Origin: Burkholderiales bacterium
Lineage (GTDB): Bacteria > Pseudomonadota > Gammaproteobacteria > Burkholderiales > Thiobacteraceae
Length of the DNA stretch: 35,583 nucleotides
Assembly: GCA_018781585.1 (NCBI GenBank)
Contig: JADMJT010000099.1
Coordinates: 1 to 35,583, forward strand
Direction of reading: 5' to 3'
The translations under genes and the position numbers were made by a program. Shown one piece after another: positions 1,499-32,180 of the stretch. The notes beneath the pieces were generated by a model, which was given only the letters and a program-made list of their open reading frames with translations, was not told where the DNA came from and ran no database searches. Each line of letters begins with the position of its first letter. Position 1 is the first letter of the stretch.

Positions 1499-3532
1499 AT
1501 GTCTGAAGGTCTGATGTTGGCGCTGGGATGCGCCGTGGTGGCAATTTTGTATGGCATCGTATCCACACGCTGGATTCTTGCTAAACCGACCGGTAACGCG
1601 CGTATGCAAGAGATCGCAGCGGCGGTGCAGGAAGGGGCTTCGGCCTATCTCAACCGGCAATACACCACCATCGGTGTGGTCGGCGTCGTGCTGTTCGTTT
1701 TAATCGGTTTTTTCTTGGCGTGGAATACCGCGATCGGGTTCGCCATCGGCGCGATCCTCTCCGGTGCGGCCGGCTACATCGGTATGAACGTCTCGGTACG
1801 CGCCAACGTGCGTACCGCAGAAGCCGCCAAAGATGGCCTCAATGCTGCGCTGAATGTCGCGTTTAAAGGCGGCGCCATTACCGGCATGCTGGTCGTGGGC
1901 TTGGGTCTGCTGGGGGTGGCGGGTTATTACGCCTTCCTCACCGGCAATGGCGCAACGTCAGCCGAAGCCACCCACGCGCTGGTGGGCTTAGGTTTCGGCG
2001 GCTCGCTGATTTCTATTTTCGCGCGGCTGGGCGGCGGCATTTTCACCAAAGGCGCTGACGTCGGCGCAGATCTGGTGGGCAAGGTCGAAGCGGGCATCCC
2101 CGAAGACGACCCGCGCAACCCGGCGGTGATCGCCGACAACGTGGGCGACAACGTGGGTGATTGCGCCGGTATGGCCGCCGACTTGTTCGAGACCTATGCG
2201 GTGACCATTATCGCCACCATGCTGTTAGGCGGTTTGTTGATGGCGAATGCAGGCCCGAATGCGGTGATCTATCCGCTGGTGTTGGGCGGCGTCTCCATCA
2301 TCGCTTCGATTATCGGCACCTTCTTCGTCAAAGCGCGTGAGGGCGGCAAGATCATGAATGCGCTGTATCGCGGTCTGGCGGTTTCCGGCGTGCTGGCGGT
2401 GGCGGCTTTCTATCCCGTCACCACTTGGCTCTTGGGCGAAGGCGTGATGATTGATGGGAAGATGATTTCTTCCATGAATATTTACCTCACTTCGCTCATC
2501 GGCCTAGCGCTGACCGCTGCGCTGGTGGTGATTACCGAGTATTACACTGCGACAGAGTACGCCCCGGTGCGCCACATTGCGCAAGCCTCCACTACCGGCC
2601 ACGGCACCAACGTGATCGCCGGTCTCGGCGTGTCGATGCGTTCTACCGCCGCCCCGGTGCTGGCCGTGTGTCTGGCGATCTGGGCCGCTTATGCGTTGGC
2701 TGGTTTGTACGGTATCGCCATCGCCGCCACCGCCATGTTGTCCATGACCGGGATTATCGTGGCGCTCGACGCCTACGGCCCGATCACCGATAACGCCGGG
2801 GGTATCGCCGAAATGGCAGGCTTGCCGGATAGCATCCGCAACATTACCGATCCGCTCGACGCCGTGGGTAACACCACCAAAGCGGTAACCAAAGGCTATG
2901 CCATTGGTTCCGCTGGTTTGGCCGCCTTGGTGCTGTTCGCCGACTACACCCATGCCTTGTCGGGTGGGGGCAAGGTGTTGACCTTCGACCTCTCCAATCA
3001 CATGGTCATCATTGGCCTGTTCATCGGCGGCATGGTGCCTTATCTGTTTGCCGCCATGGGCATGGAAGCGGTCGGCCGCGCTGCCGGCTCGGTGGTGGTA
3101 GAGGTTCGCCGCCAGTTCAAGGAGATCCCCGGCATCATGGAAGGCACGGCCAAACCCCAGTACGGCGTTTGCGTGGATATGCTCACCAAGGCTGCGATCA
3201 AAGAGATGATCGTTCCTTCGCTGCTGCCCGTCGCCGTGCCTGTGATTGTGGGCCTGACCCTCGGCCCGGTGGCATTGGGTGGGGTGCTGATCGGCACCAT
3301 CGTCACTGGCCTGTTCGTTGCCATTTCCATGACTACTGGCGGCGGCGCTTGGGATAACGCCAAGAAATACATCGAAGAAGGTAACTACGGCGGTAAAGGC
3401 TCCGACGCGCACAAAGCAGCGGTGACCGGCGATACCGTGGGCGACCCTTACAAAGACACTGCCGGCCCGGCGGTTAACCCCTTGATCAAGATTATTAACA
3501 TTGTGGCGCTGATGATTGTTCCCCTGCTGTAA
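1499..3532 (+). CDS. hppA: Membrane-bound proton-translocating pyrophosphatase (K+-independent type)
   Basis: SD ggaggag before the ATG; motifs [54 protein letters not shown] and [32 protein letters not shown] carries the Lys associated with K+-independence. Confidence 0.97.
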
Positions 3533-19865: not shown

Positions 19866-21617
19866 TTATAGATCCCAACGATAGCCGATAAAGAAGAAGC
19901 TGCGCTGCGTTGTGTCCTGTTGGGTGGTGCCGTTGGTCGTGCTATGTTCGAGCCCGGCTTCGCCTTCCAAGGTGAAATTTTCTTTCATCTTGTATCCGAT
20001 GCGCACGGTCGGCGAGATGCGGGTCAGCTTTGTGCCTAGGTTGTCCTTTTGCGTATACAAACGTAGCGCACCATCCACCGTCCACTTTTCTTGAAACGTC
20101 GATAAGTTGTTGATCGAGAGCGATTGGCCATCATATTGCCGCCCCGTGATCAAGCTCCCGTTAACCACAGTAATATCTTTATCGAACACCAGTCCGGTAG
20201 CGATTGCTTGCAGGGTGTAAGTGGTCACGATGCCGGTACCCTCAGTAGCGGGCAGTGTGCCGCTGGCGCTGGTGCCAGAGACTTGCGATAGTTTGATATC
20301 GCCACCCAGTTGCCAGCGCGGGGTGAAGGGACGCGTCACGCCGAACAATAGGAAATCGGAGGTGGCGGTCAGTGCTTTGGCGCGCCGGCGCAATTCGTCT
20401 TCTGAAATGGTTTGCAGCAAGGTACGGATAGAAGTGCTGGTCTCTCCGGAAAGCGCATTGGTGGTCTGCATGGTCGGCGTTTTGCGGTGGTCGAGCAGTA
20501 GCGTGTAAGACGTGCCATCCTCGCTAATTAAATTGCCTTGGAAGAGCGCGACGTTGAGCACCTCATAGGATGCATCGTAGTCAATCAAGCTGTAGGCGGA
20601 ACGGTTCGCATCGAAGTAACGCAGCTCGGCGCCGACGGCGAGCCGATCAGTAATATCGTCGACGCGTTGGTGGATGGTGTAGACGTTGCCGCTCCAGTGC
20701 TCGGCGAAGGTGCCGCCATCCACGCTGGCGCCGTAGAAATAACGTTGAGATTCCAGATTGCTGCTTTCCGCCGGGGTGCCGATGACGCCATTCACGCGCC
20801 ACTTAGGCGCAACGCCATAGCCGCCCAAGACGCCGTCGAAGCGGCCGAGCACGCCGCCGGCGTTACCGGACTGCCGCCCCATACGCGCCGAATAGTCGTG
20901 TTCCTTGTTCTTGAGATCGAAGAATGCTGAGGTGAGGCGGTTGTCGTCCTTGCCGGTCTTGAGGAAATTCAAAGTGTGCGTGTCGCGCAGCACGAGCCGG
21001 TTGTCGTATTCGCTGCTGCGGAAACGGGCATTCAAGTCAAGGTTGGTGATGATGGAAGATTGATCAGTGCTGGAGAGGGTTGCCTTGTCGATGGTGGAGG
21101 TAGTGTTGGTGGTGATTTCGGCGTGTGTATTGCCGTAATAGTAGTTCTGCGACAAGCTGCCGAAGATCAGTGTTTCAGAAACTTCTTCGCGCTTTTTCGC
21201 TACGCGCAGCTTCGGGGTTTGGGCCGGGGCCAAATTAGCCAAGCGCTGGCGCACTCGCTCCGCGCCTTCTCCCGTTGGGTACTCTTTCAGATACAGCTCG
21301 TATTCAATTTTGGCTCTACTGATCTGCCCGTTTCGCTCGCGCGCTAAGCCGATGAGTTCTTGACCCTCTTGCTTGAATGGCGTTGGGGGAAGCCTGAGTA
21401 AACGGTTTAGTGTTCCAATCGCAAGCTCGATATCGCCTGCGCTGAGCGCTTCGCGGCCCTTGATCAAAAGCGCTTCAGCTTGGGCCTCAATGGGGCCGGC
21501 GGCGGTGCTGCTTGCGTTTGCGGTGGCTGGAGAGGGAGGAAGGGCGGTGGCGGTAGGTTCCGCCCATGAGAGGCTTGGCAGTAGGCTGGCGCAGATCAGA
21601 AGAATGGGTACCCTCAT
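19866..21617 (-). CDS. Outer-membrane beta-barrel (porin-like) protein with N-terminal TPR region
   Basis: Signal peptide MRVPILLICASLLPSLSWA, TPR-like helical region, then alternating amphipathic strands to C-terminal SFFFIGYRWDL; adjacent to multiheme cytochrome genes. Confidence 0.75.
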   Translation of the reverse strand: MRVPILLICASLLPSLSWAEPTATALPPSPATANASSTAAGPIEAQAEALLIKGREALSAGDIELAIGTLNRLLRLPPTPFKQEGQELIGLARERNGQISRAKIEYELYLKEYPTGEGAERVRQRLANLAPAQTPKLRVAKKREEVSETLIFGSLSQNYYYGNTHAEITTNTTSTIDKATLSSTDQSSIITNLDLNARFRSSEYDNRLVLRDTHTLNFLKTGKDDNRLTSAFFDLKNKEHDYSARMGRQSGNAGGVLGRFDGVLGGYGVAPKWRVNGVIGTPAESSNLESQRYFYGASVDGGTFAEHWSGNVYTIHQRVDDITDRLAVGAELRYFDANRSAYSLIDYDASYEVLNVALFQGNLISEDGTSYTLLLDHRKTPTMQTTNALSGETSTSIRTLLQTISEDELRRRAKALTATSDFLLFGVTRPFTPRWQLGGDIKLSQVSGTSASGTLPATEGTGIVTTYTLQAIATGLVFDKDITVVNGSLITGRQYDGQSLSINNLSTFQEKWTVDGALRLYTQKDNLGTKLTRISPTVRIGYKMKENFTLEGEAGLEHSTTNGTTQQDTTQRSFFFIGYRWDL

Positions 21618-21648: not shown

Positions 21649-22110
21649 TTATTTTTCGCTCTTTGGTTGGGTAGTTTCAGGGCTGCTTAGTGCGGTGACT
21701 TGCAGTGTCACACTGTAGGCATCTTTGCCCGGCTTAATCTTGTATTGGACTGGCCGCGAAAATTGGATAACAACACAATGGTTAGAGCTGGCAGCATCGC
21801 ACGATCCGCGTGGGCTATAGCTCACTGTGAACGAGGGCAGTAAATCCGAGGGCGGCGATTTCCGTTGTTCCTGTGCCTGCAGCGGTTCTGGCGTATCTAG
21901 TGCCAACAGCCGGAAATAAACCTGGATCTTGTCCCCCTTATCCTTGGGATAGTGCCGCAGGTATTGGATCTGCGAGGCGAAGCGGATATTGACCTCGGCG
22001 CCACCCGCCACCGGATTGATTTCGATCTCATCCAAGAGCTGTGCGTTCGCGAACTGCGCCAGTCCCAGTATCAGGCAAGTGAAAATCAGTTTTACAAGTG
22101 CGTTGATCAT
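21649..22110 (-). CDS. Periplasmic hypothetical protein, AMIN-like fold possible
   Basis: Signal peptide MINALVKLIFTCLILGLAQFANA; LLDEIEINPVAGGAEVNIRFASQIQYLRHYPKDKGDKIQVYFRLL. Confidence 0.65.
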   Translation of the reverse strand: MINALVKLIFTCLILGLAQFANAQLLDEIEINPVAGGAEVNIRFASQIQYLRHYPKDKGDKIQVYFRLLALDTPEPLQAQEQRKSPPSDLLPSFTVSYSPRGSCDAASSNHCVVIQFSRPVQYKIKPGKDAYSVTLQVTALSSPETTQPKSEK

Positions 22111-22131: not shown

Positions 22132-25100
22132 TTAGAATCCCCCATCGGTGGAGCGATGTTTGCTGTCGCGCCTCTGCTTGATAGTGGTGAAGGAGCTGCT
22201 CGTATATTCGTGGCAACTCCCGGCGCAATTCTTGAGTTCGGCCACCGTGTACACGATCTTCGGGCTATCCACTTTTTTGTGCGAATCGGGCTTGAACTTG
22301 CCCGCATGGCAACCGGCGCAATCGGGTTTGTAGCCGCCGTATTGCCAAGCGATCACTTCATTATTGGTTTTGTGGCAAGTGGCACAGGTCACGCCCGCGT
22401 TATGCGGCTTATAGTATGGCGTTGTATGCGTATAGCTAGTCGCCGGCGTCCAGCCGGTGGTGCGATGGCAGGATTCGCAAGCGCGCGTGGTGATGAAGTG
22501 CCCCCCGCCCTTACCTGTGGCAGTCGCTCCATTATGGCAAGTGGCACATCCGGTCGTGATCCCTGTGTGACTCATCTTGGCACCAGCGAAACTGGTAGTG
22601 GACTTATGGCAAGTCTCGCACGCGGCAGTAGTCAGAATATGGGAACCGGTCTTACCGATCGCTGTGGAACCGTTATGGCAAGTGGCACAGCCGGTGGTGA
22701 TGCCGGTGTGATTCATCCTGGTGCCGGCGAAACTGGTAGTGGACTTATGGCAAGTCTCGCACGCGGCAGTAGTCAGAATATGGGAACCGGTCTTACCGAT
22801 CGCTGTGGAACCGTTATGGCAAGTGGCACAGCCGGTGGTGATGCCGGTGTGATTCATCCTGGTGCCGGCGAAACTGGTTGTCGACTTATGGCAAGTCTCG
22901 CAGGTGGCAGTAGTCAGAATATGTGAACCGGTCTTACCGATTGCGGTGGAACCGTTATGACAGGTGGCACAACCGGTGGTGATCCCGGTGTGATTCATCC
23001 GGGTGCCGGCGAAACTGGTAGTGGACTTATGGCAAGTCTCGCACGCGGCAGTAGTCAGAATATGGGAACCGGTCTTACCGATCGCTGTGGAACCGTTATG
23101 GCAAGTGGCACAGCCGGTGGTGATGCCGGTGTGATTCATCCTGGTGCCGGCGAAACTGGTTGTCGACTTATGGCAAGTCTCGCAGGTGGCAGTAGTCAGA
23201 ATATGTGAACCGGTCTTACCGATTGCGGTGGAACCGTTATGACAGGTAGCACAACCAGTCGTGATGCCGGTGTGATTCATCCGAGTGCCAGTGAAACTGG
23301 TGGTGGACTTGTGACACGTCTCGCATGCGGCGGTGGTGAGGATGTGCGAGCCAGACTTGCCGATGGCTGTGCTGCCGTTGTGGCAGGTGGCGCAACCAGT
23401 CGTGATGCCGGTGTGATTCATCCGGGTGCCGGCGAAACTGGTGGTGGACTTGTGACACGTCTCGCAGGCGGCGGTGGTCAGGATGTGCGAACCGGACTTA
23501 CCGATGGCTGTGCTGCCGTTGTGGCAGGTAGCACAACCAGTCGTGATGCCGGTGTGATTCATCCGGGTGCCGGTGAAACTGGTAGTGGATTTATGGCAGG
23601 TCTCGCATGCGGCGGTGGTGAGGATGTGCGAACCGGACTTGCCGATGGCGGTGCTGCCGTTATGGCAGGTAGCACAACCAGTCGTGATGCCGGTGTGATT
23701 CATCCGAGTGCCAGTGAAACTGGTGGTGGACTTGTGACACGTCTCGCATGCGGCGGTGGTGAGGATGTGCGAACCGGACTTGCCGATGGCGGTGCTGCCG
23801 TTATGGCAGGTAGCACAACCGGTAGTGATGCCAGCGTGATTCATCTTTGCGCCGAGGAACGAGGTAGTCGACTTATGGCAGGTCTCGCACGTCGCAGAAG
23901 TGGTGATGTGCGTGCCAGACTTGCCTTTAGCCGTCTTGCCGTCATGGCACGAGGCGCAGCCGGTGGTGACACCAGTGTGATTCATCTTGGTACCCAAGAA
24001 GCTGGTGGTGGACTTATGGCAGGTCTCGCACGCGGCAGAAGTCGTGATGTGCGTGCCGGACTTGCCCTTGGCGGTCGTGCCATTGTGGCAAGAGGCGCAA
24101 CCGGCGGTGACACCGGTGTGATTCATCTTGGCGCCGAGGAACGAGGTGGTCGACTTGTGACAGGTTTCGCAAGTCGCAACAGTCGTGATGTGGGTAGTCG
24201 ACTTGCCTTTAGCCGTCTTCCCGTCATGGCAGGTGGCGCAACCGGTAGTGACACCTGTGTGATTCATCTTGGCGCCGAGGAATGACGTGGTCGAAGCGTG
24301 GCAAGTCTCGCATGTCGCAGAAGTCGTGATGTGCGTGCCGGACTTGCCTTTAGCGGTCGTGCCATTGTGGCAAGACGCGCAACCGGTGGTGATGCCGGCG
24401 TGATTCATCTTGGTGCCGAGGAATGAAGTGGTCGACTTGTGACAAGTTTCGCACGCGGCATTGGTCACGATGTGCGTGCCCGACTTGCCCTTGGCCGTCT
24501 TGCCATCGTGGCAAGTAGCGCAACCGGTCGTGACACCGGTGTGATTCATCTTGGCGCCCAAGAAACTGGTGGTGGACTTATGGCAGGTCTCGCACGCAGC
24601 AGACGTCGTGATGTGTGAGCCGGACTTGCCTTTAGCGGTCGTGCCATTGTGGCAAGAGGCGCAACCGGTCGTGACACCGGTGTGATTCATCTTGGTGCCG
24701 AGGAATGAAGTGGTGGACTTGTGACAAGTTTCGCACGCGGCATTGGTCACGATGTGCGTGCCGGACTTGCCCTTGGCGGTCTTGCCATCGTGGCAAGTAG
24801 CGCAGCCGGTGGTTACACCGGTGTGATTCATGGTGGCGCCCAAGAAACTGGTGGTGGACTTATGGCAGGTCTCGCACGCAGCAGACGTCGTGATGTGTGA
24901 GCCGGACTTGCCTTTAGCGGTCGTGCCATTGTGGCAAGAGGCGCAACCGGTCGTGACACCGGTGTGATTCATCTTGGTGCCGAGGAATGAAGTGGTCGAC
25001 TTGTGACAAGTTTCGCACGCGGCATTGGTCACGATGTGTGTGCCCGACTTGCCCTTGGCCGTCTTGCCATCGTGGCAAGTAGCGCAACCGGTGGTGACAC

Positions 25101-26619
25101 CAGTGTGATTCATCTTGGTACCGAGGAATGAAGTGGTCGACTTGTGACAAGTTTCGCACGCGGCGGCAGTCGTGATATGGGTAGTCGATTTACCTTTAGC
25201 GGTCGTGCCATTGTGGCAGGAGGCGCAGCCGGTGGTGACACTGGTGTGATTCATCTTCGCGCCGAGGAATGACGTGGTCGACGTGTGACAAGTCTCGCAA
25301 GTGGCAGACGTTACGATGTGCGAACCGGACTTGCCCTTGGCCATCTTGCCGTCATGGCAAGTCGCACAACCGGTGGTGATGCCAGCGTGATTCATCTTTG
25401 CGCCGAGGAACGAGGTAATCGACTTATGGCAAGTCTCGCACGCGGCAGCAGTCGTGATGTGGGTAGTCGATTTACCTTTAGCGGTCTTCCCGTCATGGCA
25501 GGTGGCGCAACCGATGGTGACACCGGTGTGGTTCATCTTGGTACCCAAGAAGCTGGTCGTGGACTTGTGACAAGTTTCGCAAGTCGCATTCGTCACGATG
25601 TGCGTGCCGGACTTGCCCTTGGCCGTCTTGCCATCGTGGCAAGTAGCACAACCGGTGGTGACCCCGGTGTGATTCATCTTAGCGCCGAGGAACGATGCAG
25701 TTGAGGCGTGACACGTCTCGCACGCAGCGGTCGTCGCGATATGGGTAGTCGATTTGCCCTTGGCTGTCTTGCCGTTATGACAAGTCACGCAAGTGGCGAT
25801 GGCCACGGAATGGTTAAAGCTTACCCCGGCTTTATAGGTGCTGGTGGTGCGGTGGCAGATCTCGCAGTTGTCACCATTTCTGATATTGGCCGGGCTGTGC
25901 AGCGTGTCCTTGGGTTTGCCCCGCGTGCGGATATCGTTGTGGCACCCGATACAGCCGGTTGAAATGTCGAGATGGTTGAAAGCGGTGACTGGAACCCAAG
26001 CCGAAGTGCGGTGGCAGGCCGCGCAGGAGGCGATAGTCGCGATGTGTTTCGAGGATTTACCGGTCGCGATGACACCATTGTGGCAGGTGGCACAGGCGGC
26101 AGGATCAGCGCTTTTATGGTTGAATTTTGCCGGCGTCCAAGCGACAGTTATATGGCAGGAATCGCATGAGGCAGTCGTTCGAATATGGCTGGCCGATTTA
26201 CCGGGGGCGCTTTTGCCGTTATGGCAGGTGGCGCAAGTGCCGGGCGCGATGCCGGAGTGCGAGAAGATTGCGGGCGACCAAGCGCTGGTGTGGTGGCATG
26301 TATCGCAGGGTTCCGCAGTGGGGATGTGCGTAGAGGGCTTGGCGGCACCCCCCATTTTATTGCCGGCGATATGGCAATTCTGGCATTGGGTCGGGGTGCC
26401 TTTGAAAACGCCTTGCACATGGCAAGATTCGCATTTAGCGCGCGCGTGCGCCCCAGAGAGCGCGAAGCCGGTTTTAAGATGGCTGAAATTGGCGCGGGGT
26501 TTGGCTTCTGCTCCCCAACCCGGGGTCATCCAGAGCGTGGCGCAGAGCGCGGCCAGAAGGGCAAATGCCCATGCAAGCTGGCGTGCAAACGCTACATAGC
26601 TCCTCTGCCCCTGGAACAT
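22132..26619 (-). CDS. Giant multiheme c-type cytochrome (59 CXXCH + 1 CX3CH)
   Basis: Manual count of heme motifs in the translated ORF (22132..26634). The internal ATG at 26617-26619 has SD agggggtttt-ATG and gives signal peptide MFQGQRSYVAFARQLAWAFALLAALCATLWMTPGWGAEA, so I prefer it over 26634. Confidence 0.95.
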   Translation of the reverse strand: MFQGQRSYVAFARQLAWAFALLAALCATLWMTPGWGAEAKPRANFSHLKTGFALSGAHARAKCESCHVQGVFKGTPTQCQNCHIAGNKMGGAAKPSTHIPTAEPCDTCHHTSAWSPAIFSHSGIAPGTCATCHNGKSAPGKSASHIRTTASCDSCHITVAWTPAKFNHKSADPAACATCHNGVIATGKSSKHIATIASCAACHRTSAWVPVTAFNHLDISTGCIGCHNDIRTRGKPKDTLHSPANIRNGDNCEICHRTTSTYKAGVSFNHSVAIATCVTCHNGKTAKGKSTTHIATTAACETCHASTASFLGAKMNHTGVTTGCATCHDGKTAKGKSGTHIVTNATCETCHKSTTSFLGTKMNHTGVTIGCATCHDGKTAKGKSTTHITTAAACETCHKSITSFLGAKMNHAGITTGCATCHDGKMAKGKSGSHIVTSATCETCHTSTTSFLGAKMNHTSVTTGCASCHNGTTAKGKSTTHITTAAACETCHKSTTSFLGTKMNHTGVTTGCATCHDGKTAKGKSGTHIVTNAACETCHKSTTSFLGTKMNHTGVTTGCASCHNGTTAKGKSGSHITTSAACETCHKSTTSFLGATMNHTGVTTGCATCHDGKTAKGKSGTHIVTNAACETCHKSTTSFLGTKMNHTGVTTGCASCHNGTTAKGKSGSHITTSAACETCHKSTTSFLGAKMNHTGVTTGCATCHDGKTAKGKSGTHIVTNAACETCHKSTTSFLGTKMNHAGITTGCASCHNGTTAKGKSGTHITTSATCETCHASTTSFLGAKMNHTGVTTGCATCHDGKTAKGKSTTHITTVATCETCHKSTTSFLGAKMNHTGVTAGCASCHNGTTAKGKSGTHITTSAACETCHKSTTSFLGTKMNHTGVTTGCASCHDGKTAKGKSGTHITTSATCETCHKSTTSFLGAKMNHAGITTGCATCHNGSTAIGKSGSHILTTAACETCHKSTTSFTGTRMNHTGITTGCATCHNGSTAIGKSGSHILTTAACETCHKSTTSFTGTRMNHTGITTGCATCHNGSTAIGKSGSHILTTAACETCHKSTTSFAGTRMNHTGITTGCATCHNGSTAIGKSGSHILTTAACETCHKSTTSFTGTRMNHTGITTGCATCHNGSTAIGKTGSHILTTATCETCHKSTTSFAGTRMNHTGITTGCATCHNGSTAIGKTGSHILTTAACETCHKSTTSFAGTRMNHTGITTGCATCHNGSTAIGKTGSHILTTATCETCHKSTTSFAGTRMNHTGITTGCATCHNGSTAIGKTGSHILTTAACETCHKSTTSFAGTRMNHTGITTGCATCHNGSTAIGKTGSHILTTAACETCHKSTTSFAGAKMSHTGITTGCATCHNGATATGKGGGHFITTRACESCHRTTGWTPATSYTHTTPYYKPHNAGVTCATCHKTNNEVIAWQYGGYKPDCAGCHAGKFKPDSHKKVDSPKIVYTVAELKNCAGSCHEYTSSSFTTIKQRRDSKHRSTDGGF
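22606..25722 (-). repeat. Tandem array of 23 x 141-bp (47-aa, two-heme) units within the giant cytochrome gene
   Basis: The C[E]TCH-coding 15-mer begins at 22606, 22747, ... 25708; 22 x 141 = 3102 fits exactly. Unit consensus CETCHKSTTSFxGxxMNHTGxTTGCATCHxGxTAxGKxGxHIxTxAA. Confidence 0.95.
22721..23247 (-). repeat. Recent 282-bp (two-unit) tandem duplication inside the 141-bp array
   Basis: About 245 bp from ~22721 to ~22965 reads identically at offset +282 (~23003 to ~23247), although the intervening single units differ. Confidence 0.8.
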
Positions 26620-26649
26620 AAAACCCCCTGACATATATTGTTATTTTGG

Positions 26650-26718: not shown

Positions 26719-28509
26719 TTACTTACCAAACCCCATTTCACCCTTGATGGTTTTGAATGACGACGTCACATGGCAGCGTTCGCATTGGCGACCGAAGCTG
26801 CCATCGTGCACATCTTCTCGCTCATGGCAGCTGACGCAGGTGCCGGAGAGGCTGAGTTTGCCTGGCATCGGGCGGGTATGGCAGGCCACGCATTCCAGCC
26901 CCTTGTGCCCGCCGTCGAGCTTGAATTTGGTGCGCTGGTCGTGATCGAAATCCCATAGTTTCCAATCCCTTGCGTTGTGGCATTGGCCGCATTCGGTGCC
27001 CAGGCGCTTTTTGTGGACATCTTCTTTCGCATGGCAGGCGTTGCATTCCATGGAGGCGTCCTTGAAGGCGGGCGTCAGGTGGCATTTTTTGCATTCCACC
27101 TTGATATGCTTGCCCAGCAGGGGGAAGCGCGCCAAACCGTGATCGAAACTGGTGTCTTTCCAGTCTTTCTCGTTGTGACAGGATTCGCATTTTTTGCCTT
27201 CCTGGCCCTTGTGTTTATCGTCTTGCTGGTGGCAGGCGTAGCAGGTCGATTGCACCTTGTCCTTGTAGAGATGCCCTTTGTGGCAAGCCATGCATTTCAC
27301 CTTGATATGCTTGCCGCGCAAAGGGTATTTGGTATCGCGGTCATGCTGGAAAGTGCTGATTTTCCAGTCTTTTTCCTTATGACAGGTTTCGCATTTCTCC
27401 CCGTATTTGCCTTTATGCTCGTCTTCTTTCAGGTGGCAGGCGATACAGGCGGTTTTTAGCTTGTCGCGGTAGTTGGCGTTGGTGTGGCAAGCGGTGCACT
27501 TAGCCGCTTTGTGCTTGTCGCGTAAGGGAAATTTGGTGTCCTGGTCGTGGTTGAACGAGGTCGTACGCCACTCGCGCTCGTTGTGGCAGGATTCGCATTT
27601 CTCACCCAAGCCGCCCTTATGCACATCGTCCGCGCGGTGGCAGGCGACGCAAGTCGTTTTAAGTTTTTCTTTATATAACCCGCTCTTGTGGCAGCTCTCG
27701 CATTTCGTCGTGCGGTGTTTGCCGCGTAGGGGGTAGCGGGTTTTGTCATGATTGAAGGTCATTTCCTTCCAGTCGCGCTCGGTGTGGCACGACTCGCACT
27801 TGGCGCCGAAGCTGCCTTTATGCTTGTCGTCCTTGCGATGGCAGGATAGGCAGTCCCGCGGCACGCCCTTGAAGCGCTGGTTTTGATGGCAATCCTCGCA
27901 CTTCACGTCGGCATGCTTGCCGGCAAGGGGGAAGCGCGTTTTTTCGTGGTCGAATTTCGCGGCTTTCCAGTCGCGCTCGTTGTGGCAGGTTTCGCACGCC
28001 GCGCCCAGATTGCCTTTGTGCTTGTCGTCTTTTTTATGGCAGGCATTGCACTTGGTGGCGGTATCGCGGTACTTGACGCCGGGACGATGGCAATCGCGGC
28101 AGGCGATTTTTGCGTCGGCGTGCCCGCCTTTTAAAATAAAATCCGTCTTGGTGTGATTGAAGGATTTCTCATCCAAGGGTGCGATATGGGCGGCGCGGCC
28201 CTTGTGCTCGGTGTGGCAGGCGCGGCATTCCTGCTCGGTCAAGCGGCCATGGTAGCCCTGTTTCTGGCGCACATCGCTTGCCACGTCTTTGTGGCAATCC
28301 AGGCACAAGCCGGTTTGCGCCGCTTTGTTGAAGCGCATATGGCATTTGACGCATTCGCTTTCGTACTTGGCGTGCCCCTCGATCACTTTGCCCGGCATCA
28401 GCACCGATTCGATGCTGTCGGCGCGCGCCCCGGCAGCGCAAAAAAACATGAGAAGTATGGCGGTGAGCCAGGCCAAGCACGGCCTAATACATGTGCACTG
28501 CGATGACAT
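26719..28509 (-). CDS. Multiheme c-type cytochrome with 24 CXXCH motifs
   Basis: 24 CXXCH counted. The true start is probably the ATG at 28507-28509 (MSSQCTCIRPCLAWLTAILLMFFCAAGARADS signal peptide), overlapping the upstream gene by 26 bp, rather than the ORF-track start at 28698. Confidence 0.93.
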   Translation of the reverse strand: MSSQCTCIRPCLAWLTAILLMFFCAAGARADSIESVLMPGKVIEGHAKYESECVKCHMRFNKAAQTGLCLDCHKDVASDVRQKQGYHGRLTEQECRACHTEHKGRAAHIAPLDEKSFNHTKTDFILKGGHADAKIACRDCHRPGVKYRDTATKCNACHKKDDKHKGNLGAACETCHNERDWKAAKFDHEKTRFPLAGKHADVKCEDCHQNQRFKGVPRDCLSCHRKDDKHKGSFGAKCESCHTERDWKEMTFNHDKTRYPLRGKHRTTKCESCHKSGLYKEKLKTTCVACHRADDVHKGGLGEKCESCHNEREWRTTSFNHDQDTKFPLRDKHKAAKCTACHTNANYRDKLKTACIACHLKEDEHKGKYGEKCETCHKEKDWKISTFQHDRDTKYPLRGKHIKVKCMACHKGHLYKDKVQSTCYACHQQDDKHKGQEGKKCESCHNEKDWKDTSFDHGLARFPLLGKHIKVECKKCHLTPAFKDASMECNACHAKEDVHKKRLGTECGQCHNARDWKLWDFDHDQRTKFKLDGGHKGLECVACHTRPMPGKLSLSGTCVSCHEREDVHDGSFGRQCERCHVTSSFKTIKGEMGFGK

Positions 28510-29377
28510 GAAACACCGCGCTGAAGGCGAGCATATAAACGAAGGGGACATGCAGCACATGCCAAAGTGAAAACATGCGCTCGTAAGCAGCAAACTGATG
28601 CACGCGCTGCACTTCCGCCACGTAGTCCGCCAGCGCCGGGGTAATTTCGGCCAGGAATTTGCGCAGGGCTTGCCGATCCAGGCCGTGTTGCGCCGCATCG
28701 GTTTTAAGGGTTTTTTTCAGCGCTTGCAGGCAGTGCCGATAGGTGCGCCGCTTATACCAACCCAGGGTCATGAAGCGCCAAGCGCGGGTGATAAAGGAGC
28801 CGGAGGTGTCTTTGGCGCGCGCTTCGAAGGCTTGGAGCAGGGCTTCCGCCTGCGGCGCGAAGCGCAAGCGGGATTCCACATCCCCCGCATGCAGGCCGAG
28901 TTCCGCTTGCATTTCCTTCAGATTCGCATGGCTGCCATAGAGGCCGTGGTGAATGCGCGTGTAGATGAAACGGCCGATCACGCCGCTGCCGGCCACCAGC
29001 AGCATGGACACCAACGCTACCCCGGCATTGAGCGAGCCGATGCTGAAGGTCGAGTGAAACAAGATCAACATCGGGCCGGCGATCCCGAGAAACATGTGGG
29101 TGCGGAACCAGGGTTTGATCGGTCCCCAGCCATGCATGAAACGCAAATGTTTGCGTAGCGGGTAAGTGAGCAGCATCAGCATCATCACGCCGCCGATCAA
29201 TCCCATGTAATAGCCTAAGTCGGATCCCGCAGTGTAGTAATCGCCTTGCGCGACCAACCAGGCGGCAGCCATGGCGAGGATCAACGCGAGACTGATTCCA
29301 GCGCGCTTGATGATGGCAGCGTTAACGGCCGGCTGCCGGGCTTCGGTCTGGGGAAGGGCTGCTGCGGGATTAGTCAT
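28484..29377 (-). CDS. Cytochrome b / ferric-reductase-like transmembrane protein
   Basis: Several TM segments with His pairs (RTHMFLGIAGPMLILFHSTF; LWHVLHVPFVYMLAFSAVFHVIAVHMY); adjacent to multiheme cytochromes. Confidence 0.78.
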   Translation of the reverse strand: MTNPAAALPQTEARQPAVNAAIIKRAGISLALILAMAAAWLVAQGDYYTAGSDLGYYMGLIGGVMMLMLLTYPLRKHLRFMHGWGPIKPWFRTHMFLGIAGPMLILFHSTFSIGSLNAGVALVSMLLVAGSGVIGRFIYTRIHHGLYGSHANLKEMQAELGLHAGDVESRLRFAPQAEALLQAFEARAKDTSGSFITRAWRFMTLGWYKRRTYRHCLQALKKTLKTDAAQHGLDRQALRKFLAEITPALADYVAEVQRVHQFAAYERMFSLWHVLHVPFVYMLAFSAVFHVIAVHMY

Positions 29378-29596: not shown

Positions 29597-30904
29597 ATGG
29601 TGTTATCGACGGAACTGATTAGCGTATTGCTCTATCTTTCTCCGCTTGCGGTCGTGATGTATTTGTATCTGCGGCGGCATGCGAAACGCGCCGCGCAGCA
29701 TGCGGGTGTGTTGCGCGAGTCGGTGGAAGCGGGGCTCAATGAGCCGCCCTCGCTGCATCCGGTGATCAACCCGAATCGTTGTATCGGCTCCGGCGCCTGC
29801 GTCAAAGCGTGTCCGGAAAAGGCGCTGGGCATCATCAACGGCAAGGGTCAGTTGATCAATGCCTCCTCCTGTATCGGCCACGGTGCGTGCCGGCTGGCCT
29901 GCCCGGTGGATGCGATTCAACTGGTATTCGGCACCGAAAAGCGCGGCGTGGACATTCCGCAAGTGCAGCCAAATTTCGAAACCAATGTGCCGGGAATTTT
30001 TATTGCCGGCGAGTTGGGCGGCATGGGGCTGATCCGCAATGCGGTGGAGCAGGGCCGGCAGGCACTGGAATCCGTTGCGCAAACAAAAGATCGCGAGGGC
30101 GAACTGGATGTGGTGATCGTCGGCACTGGCCCCTCTGGCTTATCCTCTGCTTTGGCCGCGATGGAGAAGAAGCTGCGTTTTGTCGCGGTGGAGCAAGAGG
30201 ATTCTTTGGGCGGCACGGTCTATCACTATCCGCGCAACAAGGTCGTGATGACCAGACCCATGCGCCTGCCCATGGTCGGCACGGTGAAAATGGGTGAGGT
30301 GAGCAAGGAATCTCTGCTCGAATTCTGGAATGGCATCATTCAGAAAACCGGACTCAAAATCAACTTCAACGAACGCATGGAAAAGATAGAGCAAACCGCT
30401 AGCGGCTTCGAGGTCCAGACCAATCGCCAGGTGTACCGCACGCGCAATGTGTTGCTCACCATTGGCCGCCGCGGCACCCCGCGTAAGCTGGGGGTGGCGG
30501 GCGAGGAACAGCCCAAAGTAGTGTATCGCTTGATCGACCCCGAGCAGTATCGCGGCCAGCATGTGCTGGTGGTGGGCGGCGGCGACAGCGCCTTGGAAGC
30601 GGCGCTGGCCATTGCCGATCAGCCTGGCAGCACGGTTGCCTTGTCTTACCGCAGCGAGGCATTCGGCCGGGTCAAACCCAAAAATCGGCAGCGACTGGAT
30701 GCGGCGCAAGCGGCGGGCCGCGTGCAGGTCTTGCTCAAATCGAGCGTGAAGGAAATTGTGTCTGATGCGGTGTCGATTGAGCATGATGGCCAAACCCTGT
30801 CGCTTAAGAATGACGCAGTGATCGTGTGCGCCGGCGGTATTTTGCCGACGCCCTTTTTGAAAGAGATTGGCATCATGGTGGAGACAAAACATGGCACAGC
30901 CTGA
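29597..30904 (+). CDS. Membrane-anchored ferredoxin-domain / FAD-NAD(P) (thioredoxin-reductase-like) oxidoreductase
   Basis: N-terminal TM helix; CIGSGACVKACP and CIGHGACRLACP; GIFIAGELGGMGLIRNAVEQG; FAD motif VVIVGTGPSGLSSALAA; NAD(P) motif VLVVGGGDSALEAALA. Confidence 0.88.
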   Translation: MVLSTELISVLLYLSPLAVVMYLYLRRHAKRAAQHAGVLRESVEAGLNEPPSLHPVINPNRCIGSGACVKACPEKALGIINGKGQLINASSCIGHGACRLACPVDAIQLVFGTEKRGVDIPQVQPNFETNVPGIFIAGELGGMGLIRNAVEQGRQALESVAQTKDREGELDVVIVGTGPSGLSSALAAMEKKLRFVAVEQEDSLGGTVYHYPRNKVVMTRPMRLPMVGTVKMGEVSKESLLEFWNGIIQKTGLKINFNERMEKIEQTASGFEVQTNRQVYRTRNVLLTIGRRGTPRKLGVAGEEQPKVVYRLIDPEQYRGQHVLVVGGGDSALEAALAIADQPGSTVALSYRSEAFGRVKPKNRQRLDAAQAAGRVQVLLKSSVKEIVSDAVSIEHDGQTLSLKNDAVIVCAGGILPTPFLKEIGIMVETKHGTA

Positions 30905-32180
30905 AATCTGGTTCTGGATAAGCGCAATTGTGTTGACCCTGTTCGCGCTCGGGGTGGTGTTGCGCCCCTTGCTTTCCAAGCGCGAGATCGCCACACCCGA
31001 TCAGATCGAATCGAATGCCGCGATTTATCGCGGCCAACTCGACGAGTTGGAGCGGGATTTGGCCGCCGGCACGCTGGATGCCGAGCACTATGCCGAGAGC
31101 CGGCGCGAGCTCGAACGCCGTTTGTTGGAAGAAGCTTCGTCGTCCGCCTTGCCGCGCCCGCCTGTCGCGCGCCGTTGGTGTTTTGCGCTGTTGGTGGCCG
31201 CGCTTTTGCCGCTGACGGCCCTCGGTTTGTATTACCAATTGGGGCGCCCCGATGCGATTACCTACGCGCCCTTGGATAATTTGATGGCGCAGGAAAAGCC
31301 TGAGGGGCACGCGAAGGATGCAGATTTGGATCCCTTGGTGGCGCGCTTGGCGGCGCGGCTGCGCGACAAGTCGCCGGAAGACGGCGAAGGTTGGGCTTTG
31401 TTGGCGCGTTCCTATGTGGAGCTTAAGCGCCATGCCGAGGCGTCGGCGGCGTTCGCAAAAGCTGCCGCGCTGTTGCCGCGCGATCCTGTCTTACTGGTGG
31501 ATTACGCTGATGCGCTGGCCATGGCGCAGGGCAGGCGCATGGAAGGCAAGCCCGCGCAACTGGTCGAGCAAGCGCTGGCGCTCGACCCGCGCAACGAAAA
31601 AGCCTTGATGCTGGCCGCGACACACGAATTCGATCGTCACCGCTACCCTGAGGCCATTAAATATTGGGAACGCTTGAGCCATGTGGCGTCCCCAGGATCA
31701 GAATCGGCGAAAGAAGCACTAGCCAGTATTGAGGAGTCGAAAGCGATCCTATCCGGCAAGGCCGTAGCCGCAGCACCCGCCGCGCCGATCGAGGCGCCTG
31801 CCCAAGTCGTAACCGCGCCGCGTGCTGCTCCCGCTTCCATAGAGATACGCGGTGAAGTGACACTCGCACCCGCCTTGGCACGCCGCGTCAAGCCCACCGA
31901 TACCTTATTCATTTTTGCGCGCGCTGCGACTGGTCCGCGCATGCCGGTTGCGATCATCACGGCAAAGGCGAATGCGCTACCATATCTGTTCACTCTGTCG
32001 GATAGCATGAACCTGATGCCGGGCCGCAATTTGTCCGAGATGGAAAGCGTGGTGGTGGTGGCGCGCATCACCTCCTCCGGCCAGGCCACGGTGCAAAGCG
32101 GCGATCTCGAAGGCGCCACGCCGCCGCTGCGCCCCGGCGGCCAGCCAGTGAAACTGGTGATCGACCGTGTCACGCCTTAA
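30891..32180 (+). CDS. ccmI: c-type cytochrome biogenesis protein CcmI/CycH-like with TPRs
   Basis: MAQPEIWFWISAIVLTLFALGVVLRPLLSKRE...AIYRGQLDELERDLAAGTLDAEHYAESRRELERRLLEE, TPR region, C-terminal domain; overlaps the preceding CDS by 14 bp. Confidence 0.85.
   Translation: MAQPEIWFWISAIVLTLFALGVVLRPLLSKREIATPDQIESNAAIYRGQLDELERDLAAGTLDAEHYAESRRELERRLLEEASSSALPRPPVARRWCFALLVAALLPLTALGLYYQLGRPDAITYAPLDNLMAQEKPEGHAKDADLDPLVARLAARLRDKSPEDGEGWALLARSYVELKRHAEASAAFAKAAALLPRDPVLLVDYADALAMAQGRRMEGKPAQLVEQALALDPRNEKALMLAATHEFDRHRYPEAIKYWERLSHVASPGSESAKEALASIEESKAILSGKAVAAAPAAPIEAPAQVVTAPRAAPASIEIRGEVTLAPALARRVKPTDTLFIFARAATGPRMPVAIITAKANALPYLFTLSDSMNLMPGRNLSEMESVVVVARITSSGQATVQSGDLEGATPPLRPGGQPVKLVIDRVTP

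Follow-up and report, generated by a model that had tools for sequence, protein, structure and literature searches.

The window, by which we mean the whole 35,583-nucleotide stretch of DNA analyzed here, carries on its minus strand a gene for an external cytochrome with 60 heme-binding motifs. Next to it lie genes for an inner membrane protein (IMP), a periplasmic 24-heme cytochrome, and an outer membrane porin, and the order IMP/24-heme cytochrome/external cytochrome/porin is also kept in relatives. These are the parts of PCC3, a porin-cytochrome system that has been predicted since 2017 (He et al., PMC5566968). The features, by position in the window, are as follows.

19866 to 21617, minus strand: TPR domain and predicted 22-stranded outer membrane beta-barrel, the PCC3 porin (583 aa)
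21649 to 22110, minus strand: secreted 153-aa protein, separate here and fused to the porin N terminus in most relatives
22132 to 26619, minus strand: 60-heme external cytochrome of the PCC3 cluster, from motif count and cluster context (1,495 aa; alternative start, 26634)
22132 to 22500 (approximate borders), minus strand: C-terminal end region of that cytochrome, with an atypical CX3CH heme motif and an -HRSTDGGF terminus, shared with seven relatives
22518 to 25692, minus strand: tandem array of a 141-bp unit (47 aa, two hemes) in 22.5 copies, found with TRF
25740 to 26619 (approximate borders), minus strand: signal peptide and conserved N-terminal end region with ~9 hemes
26719 to 28698, minus strand: periplasmic 24-heme cytochrome (24 CXXCH motifs in triheme cycles of 17-18-32)
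28484 to 29377, minus strand: IMP with five helices, two WX3HX13H motifs, and SGXXG (297 aa), likely a di-heme cytochrome b
29597 to 30904, plus strand: N-terminal hydrophobic segment, two [4Fe-4S] motifs, and an FAD/NAD(P) oxidoreductase (Pfam), divergent from the cluster
30867 to 32180, plus strand: CcmI/CycH cytochrome c biogenesis protein (TIGR03142, above cutoff), adjoining the cluster

The longest open reading frame of the external cytochrome runs from 22132 to 26634 on the minus strand (1,500 aa). The ATG at 26619, which follows an AGGGGG Shine-Dalgarno sequence and lines up with the start in a sister species (L012), yields the 1,495-aa protein. A scripted count found 59 CXXCH motifs and one CX3CH motif (CAGSCH, the last in the chain), in agreement with a first-pass annotation that had read these numbers, as well as a repeating two-heme module of 47 aa, from the sequence and had left the strand unstated. 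TRF recovered that module as a 141-bp period, with 82% matches and 0% indels over the 22.5 copies. Heme motifs are spaced by 24 and 23 residues in alternation along most of the chain, and ~9 hemes at the start and ~4 at the end lie outside the 47-aa repeat, in conserved end regions. All of the 121 cysteines belong to heme motifs except one in the signal peptide, a Sec-type sequence with its hydrophobic stretch at residues 14 to 32. A single signal peptide-bearing protein carries the 60 heme motifs, and its 47-aa two-heme modules form an array between conserved ends.

Histidines outside the motifs number 62, and 54 of the 58 inter-motif intervals contain exactly one. The binomial chance of this pattern against the background His frequency is ~1e-18, a figure in which independence is overstated, the intervals being duplicates of one another. 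The 47-aa module (24 + 23 spacing) was found in 23 external cytochromes of our set, with 3 to 25 modules apiece; all 197 modules compared from these proteins have a His at module position 41, and essentially all have a second one at position 17 or 18. Across 40 complete external cytochromes with 11 to 76 hemes, spare histidine number rises in step with heme number (slope, 1.03; r, 0.997), so that one candidate distal His per heme appears to be a rule of the whole family. The first-pass annotation had claimed one spare His per heme and, from this, an all-bis-His, polymer-like heme wire. The ratio was borne out both here and family-wide, and because each heme has a distal candidate, with histidine number and position that fit, all-bis-His ligation is likely. 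Polymerization was not supported; the hemes belong to one covalent chain. An AlphaFold model of the C-terminal 448 aa (array plus end), made with 14 aligned sequences, had a mean pLDDT of 42.5, which marks it as a poor model.

Most complete external cytochromes have a C terminus of one of a few types. The CX3CH/HRSTDGGF type is common to the window protein and L060, L068, L071, L090, L103, L104, and L124, and many other external cytochromes end in a CX4CH version (CSxSGCHRPLG..G..Y..W). The N-terminal stretch common to these proteins has the consensus FDH.KTGF.L.G.H...CESCH..G.FKGTP..C..CH, which resembles, in a comparison of consensus sequences, the triheme repeat of the periplasmic cytochrome. 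Presumably the ends attach the protein to a substrate or to other parts of the conduit, and the array determines reach.

The neighboring genes have the traits by which PCC3 is recognized. The IMP signature included in the description of PCC3 clusters by He et al. in 2017 (PMC5566968) is present, with WX3HX13H at residues 90 and 272 and SGXXG at residue 131, and the protein has the five hydrophobic segments and the length (~300 aa) expected of a PCC3 IMP; its motif residues are invariant in 16 aligned proteins. The periplasmic cytochrome, with its 24 CXXCH motifs, falls in the PCC3 range (median, 21; 21 to 27 in Gallionellaceae). Its real start is probably further downstream than annotated, near 28509, and a sequence search returned no solved relative. 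The external cytochrome, at 60 motifs, 25 aa per heme, and with repeats, likewise lies within the 22 to 39 aa per heme of PCC3.

The porin was modeled by AlphaFold with a mean pLDDT of 87.8 and ~22 strands, and Foldseek matched the model to outer membrane barrels. Forty-eight open reading frames that adjoin other external cytochromes in PCC3 loci are homologous to it, and by this homology it probably represents the PCC3 outer membrane barrel. Its best 50 PDB fold matches were general outer membrane barrels with low TM-scores and included no MtrB, and it had no MtrB_PioB Pfam match. The 153-aa domain is fused to the barrel protein in most relatives, so the two genes here amount to one split porin; the same split occurs in L060 and L103, and no Pfam domain was found in the 153-aa protein. 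A SPOR (peptidoglycan-binding) domain stands beside the TPR domain in 6 of 25 aligned PCC3 porins, which suggests cell wall anchoring.

The kind of system at this locus is not new, and the external cytochrome is a member of the published PCC3; the separate, simpler kind of wire that the first-pass annotation had envisaged was not borne out. We made the assignment from gene order, motifs, and homologous neighbors, without alignment to published PCC3 sequences. CcmI was rejected as a conserved part of the cluster, as it is adjacent in the closest relatives only. Rfam gave no RNA element match, and promoter and terminator scans did not rise above shuffled sequences. Elsewhere in the window, a phosphofructokinase family gene, perhaps pyrophosphate dependent (3 to 1193), and a proton-pumping pyrophosphatase gene (1499 to 3532) are neighbors.

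Using the IMP as the query against whole genomes and 80 named loci, with duplicates removed, we compared heme numbers among relatives. Of 84 loci with a complete periplasmic cytochrome, 62 have 24 hemes in it, 12 have 27, and 6 have 21, so that 80 show one of these three counts. The open reading frames behind the four remaining counts look split or damaged; the pieces add up to a common number in, for example, two of these loci (9 + 15 = 24 in L084; 18 + 9 = 27 in L073). Periplasmic heme spacings run in three-heme cycles, which explains why the counts step by three. External cytochromes have from about 11 to 76 motifs, with a median of 26; the external list begins at 9, and its entries L073, L084, and L115 are probably parts of a periplasmic gene that has been split. 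For Gallionellaceae PCC3, Hoover et al. (2023, PMC10734462) reported 21, 24, and 27 periplasmic hemes and 10 to 35 external hemes, and our survey extends these counts and makes the contrast between periplasmic and external numbers explicit.

Several records in the survey stand apart. PCC3 clusters were found on contigs titled as Klebsiella pneumoniae (L117) and Rhizobium (L066) MAGs, which are probably misbinned or mislabeled; L066 resembles a Thiobacillus locus (L064). A second, distant IMP type occurs beside 10-heme cytochromes in one genus (L056 and L057; genomes G004 and G003) and perhaps belongs to another multiheme system. Two relatives are recorded as strains and not as MAGs: Novimethylophilus kurashikiensis La2-4 (L124) and Hydrogenophaga aromaticivorans D2P1 (L136).

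Wide variation in heme number would be tolerable if the hemes served chiefly as a capacitor near the outer membrane, with reach of secondary importance, a role that has been put forward for PCC3 (PMC10734462). We consider such charge storage unlikely, since the regular heme spacing and the 1:1 His ratio suit a continuous chain and storage would not need conserved ends.

The array itself appears to be both selected and mobile. Pairs of window modules differ at 58% of synonymous and 17% of nonsynonymous sites (pS, 0.58; pN, 0.17), and pN/pS among the 25 window modules is 0.29, which points to purifying selection and indicates that the copies are real and selected as protein. Modules two apart in the array are more alike in DNA (identity, 0.859) than adjacent ones (0.818), which suggests duplication in four-heme steps. 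The nearest neighbor of a module lies within the same protein in 59% of cases, versus 6% when labels are shuffled, and the figure for window modules is 92%; modules are evidently homogenized within each protein. The IMP of the sister species L012 is 90% identical to that of the window, and the N-terminal ends of the two external cytochromes, over the first ~10 hemes, align position for position at ~90%. Array modules, by contrast, match best at other positions, so that positional orthology is lost. In the sister genome G002 the two ends of the gene lie on two contigs (L012 and L156) that both break inside the array, and G003 is apparently broken likewise (L014 and L159). Over all loci, 24 contig ends fall inside the external gene, compared with 6 inside the periplasmic gene. 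The external array thus seems to turn over between sister species while its ends are conserved, and it breaks assemblies. Because exact repeats of 200 to 250 bp are present in the window array and sister contigs end inside theirs, the figure of 60 hemes is an assembly count, and the real copy number could be a few modules off the assembled 22.5.

The same exact repeats and broken sister contigs, together with the range of about 11 to 76 motifs in relatives, would be expected if array length were mostly a product of neutral repeat slippage or of assembly and had no functional meaning. We regard this as quite unlikely: the excess of synonymous over nonsynonymous divergence implies that most copies are real and selected, and there are no indels across the 22.5 copies. 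Assembly artifact as the sole explanation was rejected, copy number apart, as the modules have diverged at synonymous sites. Not every array is labile. Three loci from three genera (L044, L045, and L047) have 63 motifs each and little internal similarity, which counts against free length change; their array appears to be old and stable in length, unlike the homogenized 47-aa arrays.

A gene divergent from the cluster and coding for a membrane-anchored flavoprotein lies within 1 kb of the IMP gene in 55 of the 87 loci with enough upstream sequence and is absent there in 32. A word search of the main text of He et al. (PMC5566968) for flavoprotein, 4Fe-4S, and pyridine nucleotide found no mention of them. 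The protein may link NAD(P)(H) with the IMP, and it is a candidate for an associated or missing part of PCC3, at the cytoplasmic end of the circuit. We tentatively propose that PCC3 connects NAD(P)H with the exterior in one circuit, in which the flavoprotein couples NAD(P)(H) to the di-heme b-type IMP, the periplasmic cytochrome stays within one triheme unit of 24 hemes, and the external wire is adjustable. Periplasmic length would be fixed by the need to bridge the periplasm, and two-heme modules would be gained and lost by recombination between fixed ends.

The genome around the cluster encodes three RuBisCO large-subunit genes, secretins, and, on contig C11, a decaheme MtrA/MtoA homologue with an MtrB/PioB barrel (G000 C11:19167-22098; L138/L154). 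The likeliest setting, to judge from this gene content, is an autotroph supplied with electrons by reduced iron, whether solid or dissolved, or by some other extracellular donor.

Our best explanation is that the window gene belongs to a complete PCC3 porin-cytochrome system as its external multiheme cytochrome, and we think this probable as a whole, a judgment that covers PCC3 membership, the wire, inward flow, and an array length that changes by recombination. The cytochrome would be exported and its hemes attached by the Ccm system, with every heme bound by the His of its own CXXCH and by one spare His. The chain would fold into a single covalent heme wire, roughly 50 nm long, outside the outer membrane. 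Hemes in MtrCAB and OmcS are spaced ~0.8 to 0.9 nm apart; by that estimate, 24 hemes would cover ~20 nm, near the width of the periplasm, and 60 hemes ~50 nm. Electrons leaving the wire would cross the 22-strand barrel, move along the 24-heme cytochrome that bridges the periplasm, and arrive at the di-heme b-type IMP, which meets the quinone pool. In this autotroph they would most likely flow inward, with Fe(II), minerals, or some other solid as the donor. Array length would shift through inter-module recombination, with selection acting on heme spacing and only weakly on number. The outer-surface electron wire suggested in the first-pass annotation is supported as the best inference.

Direction of flow is the part of this scheme with the strongest competitor. 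The same PCC3 protein could serve to unload electrons onto minerals, humics, or partner cells, as conduits of the MtrA/MtoA type are regarded as reversible (PMC10734462), an NAD(P)H-type flavoprotein adjoins the cluster in many loci, and PCC3 in Sideroxydans lithotrophicus ES-1 is not induced by Fe(II). That strain downregulated its PCC3 genes on Fe(II) (PMC8788666), and its external cytochrome, Slit_1448, scored 0 in every listed proteome, magnetite included (PMC12016527); the ES-1 data count against our best explanation and offer no support there for a role in dissolved Fe(II) or magnetite oxidation. Outward flow is nonetheless doubtful here given the autotrophic gene content and the frequency of PCC3 in iron oxidizers (PMC5566968, PMC10734462), and we retain inward flow as the preferred direction.

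Conduction through many hemes outside the cell invites comparison with OmcS, OmcE, and OmcZ of Geobacter, and the extended heme chain and extracellular placement inferred for our protein are analogous to theirs. The analogy stops there. No such chain was recognized among the PDB sequence matches, so that the functional comparison with nanowires drawn in the first-pass annotation found no counterpart in sequence there; those filaments are polymers of small subunits, whereas a single polypeptide holds 60 hemes here, and the operon includes porin and periplasmic partners. That the protein is a subunit of a self-assembling cytochrome filament is therefore very improbable.

MtrCAB, MtoAB, and PioAB offer a functional analogy, with a cytochrome and a barrel across the outer membrane, although their cytochrome is a decaheme, compared with 24 plus 60 hemes here, and the genome has its separate MtrA/MtrB-type pair. 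The external cytochrome has weak local similarity (E, 5e-8) to the decaheme chain of PDB 6r2q, which we take to be MtrA of MtrCAB (the name in the table differs). Identity with DmsE/MtrA (TIGR03508, a 258-position model) was rejected: the best single stretch scored 46 bits, versus 280 for the MtrA/MtoA homologue on C11, and the whole-protein score of 259.8 passes the cutoff solely by summing 12 partial stretches. Such summed scores could lead automatic annotation to misname multi-repeat cytochromes.

Published PCC3 clusters agree with the window in their four parts, gene order, IMP motifs, and 21- to 27-heme periplasmic cytochrome, and their external cytochromes are, as here, rich in Thr, Ser, Ala, and Gly, repetitive, and sized at ~25 aa per heme. 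External cytochromes with repeats and up to 85 hemes had already been published (PMC5566968), so the 60 hemes of the window protein exceed the 10 to 35 of Gallionellaceae and fall short of that maximum. What differs is the unusual regularity of the array (47 aa, 22.5 copies) and the encoding of the porin N-terminal domain by a separate gene. The closest parallels are in Thiobacillus and Gallionellaceae (L061, L064, L104, and others), which have the same 24 + 23 spacing and 47-aa module in arrays of 19 to 22 modules; the C-terminal ends of Thiobacillus L061 and L064 are of the CX4CH type, unlike that of the window protein. The near-perfect two-heme periodicity offers a minimal unit for studies of structure and of the length dependence of conduction, and near-fixed periplasmic heme number set against variable external number gives a concrete hypothesis of a bridge and an adjustable reach. 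As a large and very regular member of PCC3, the window protein illustrates how a molecular wire may gain and lose length.
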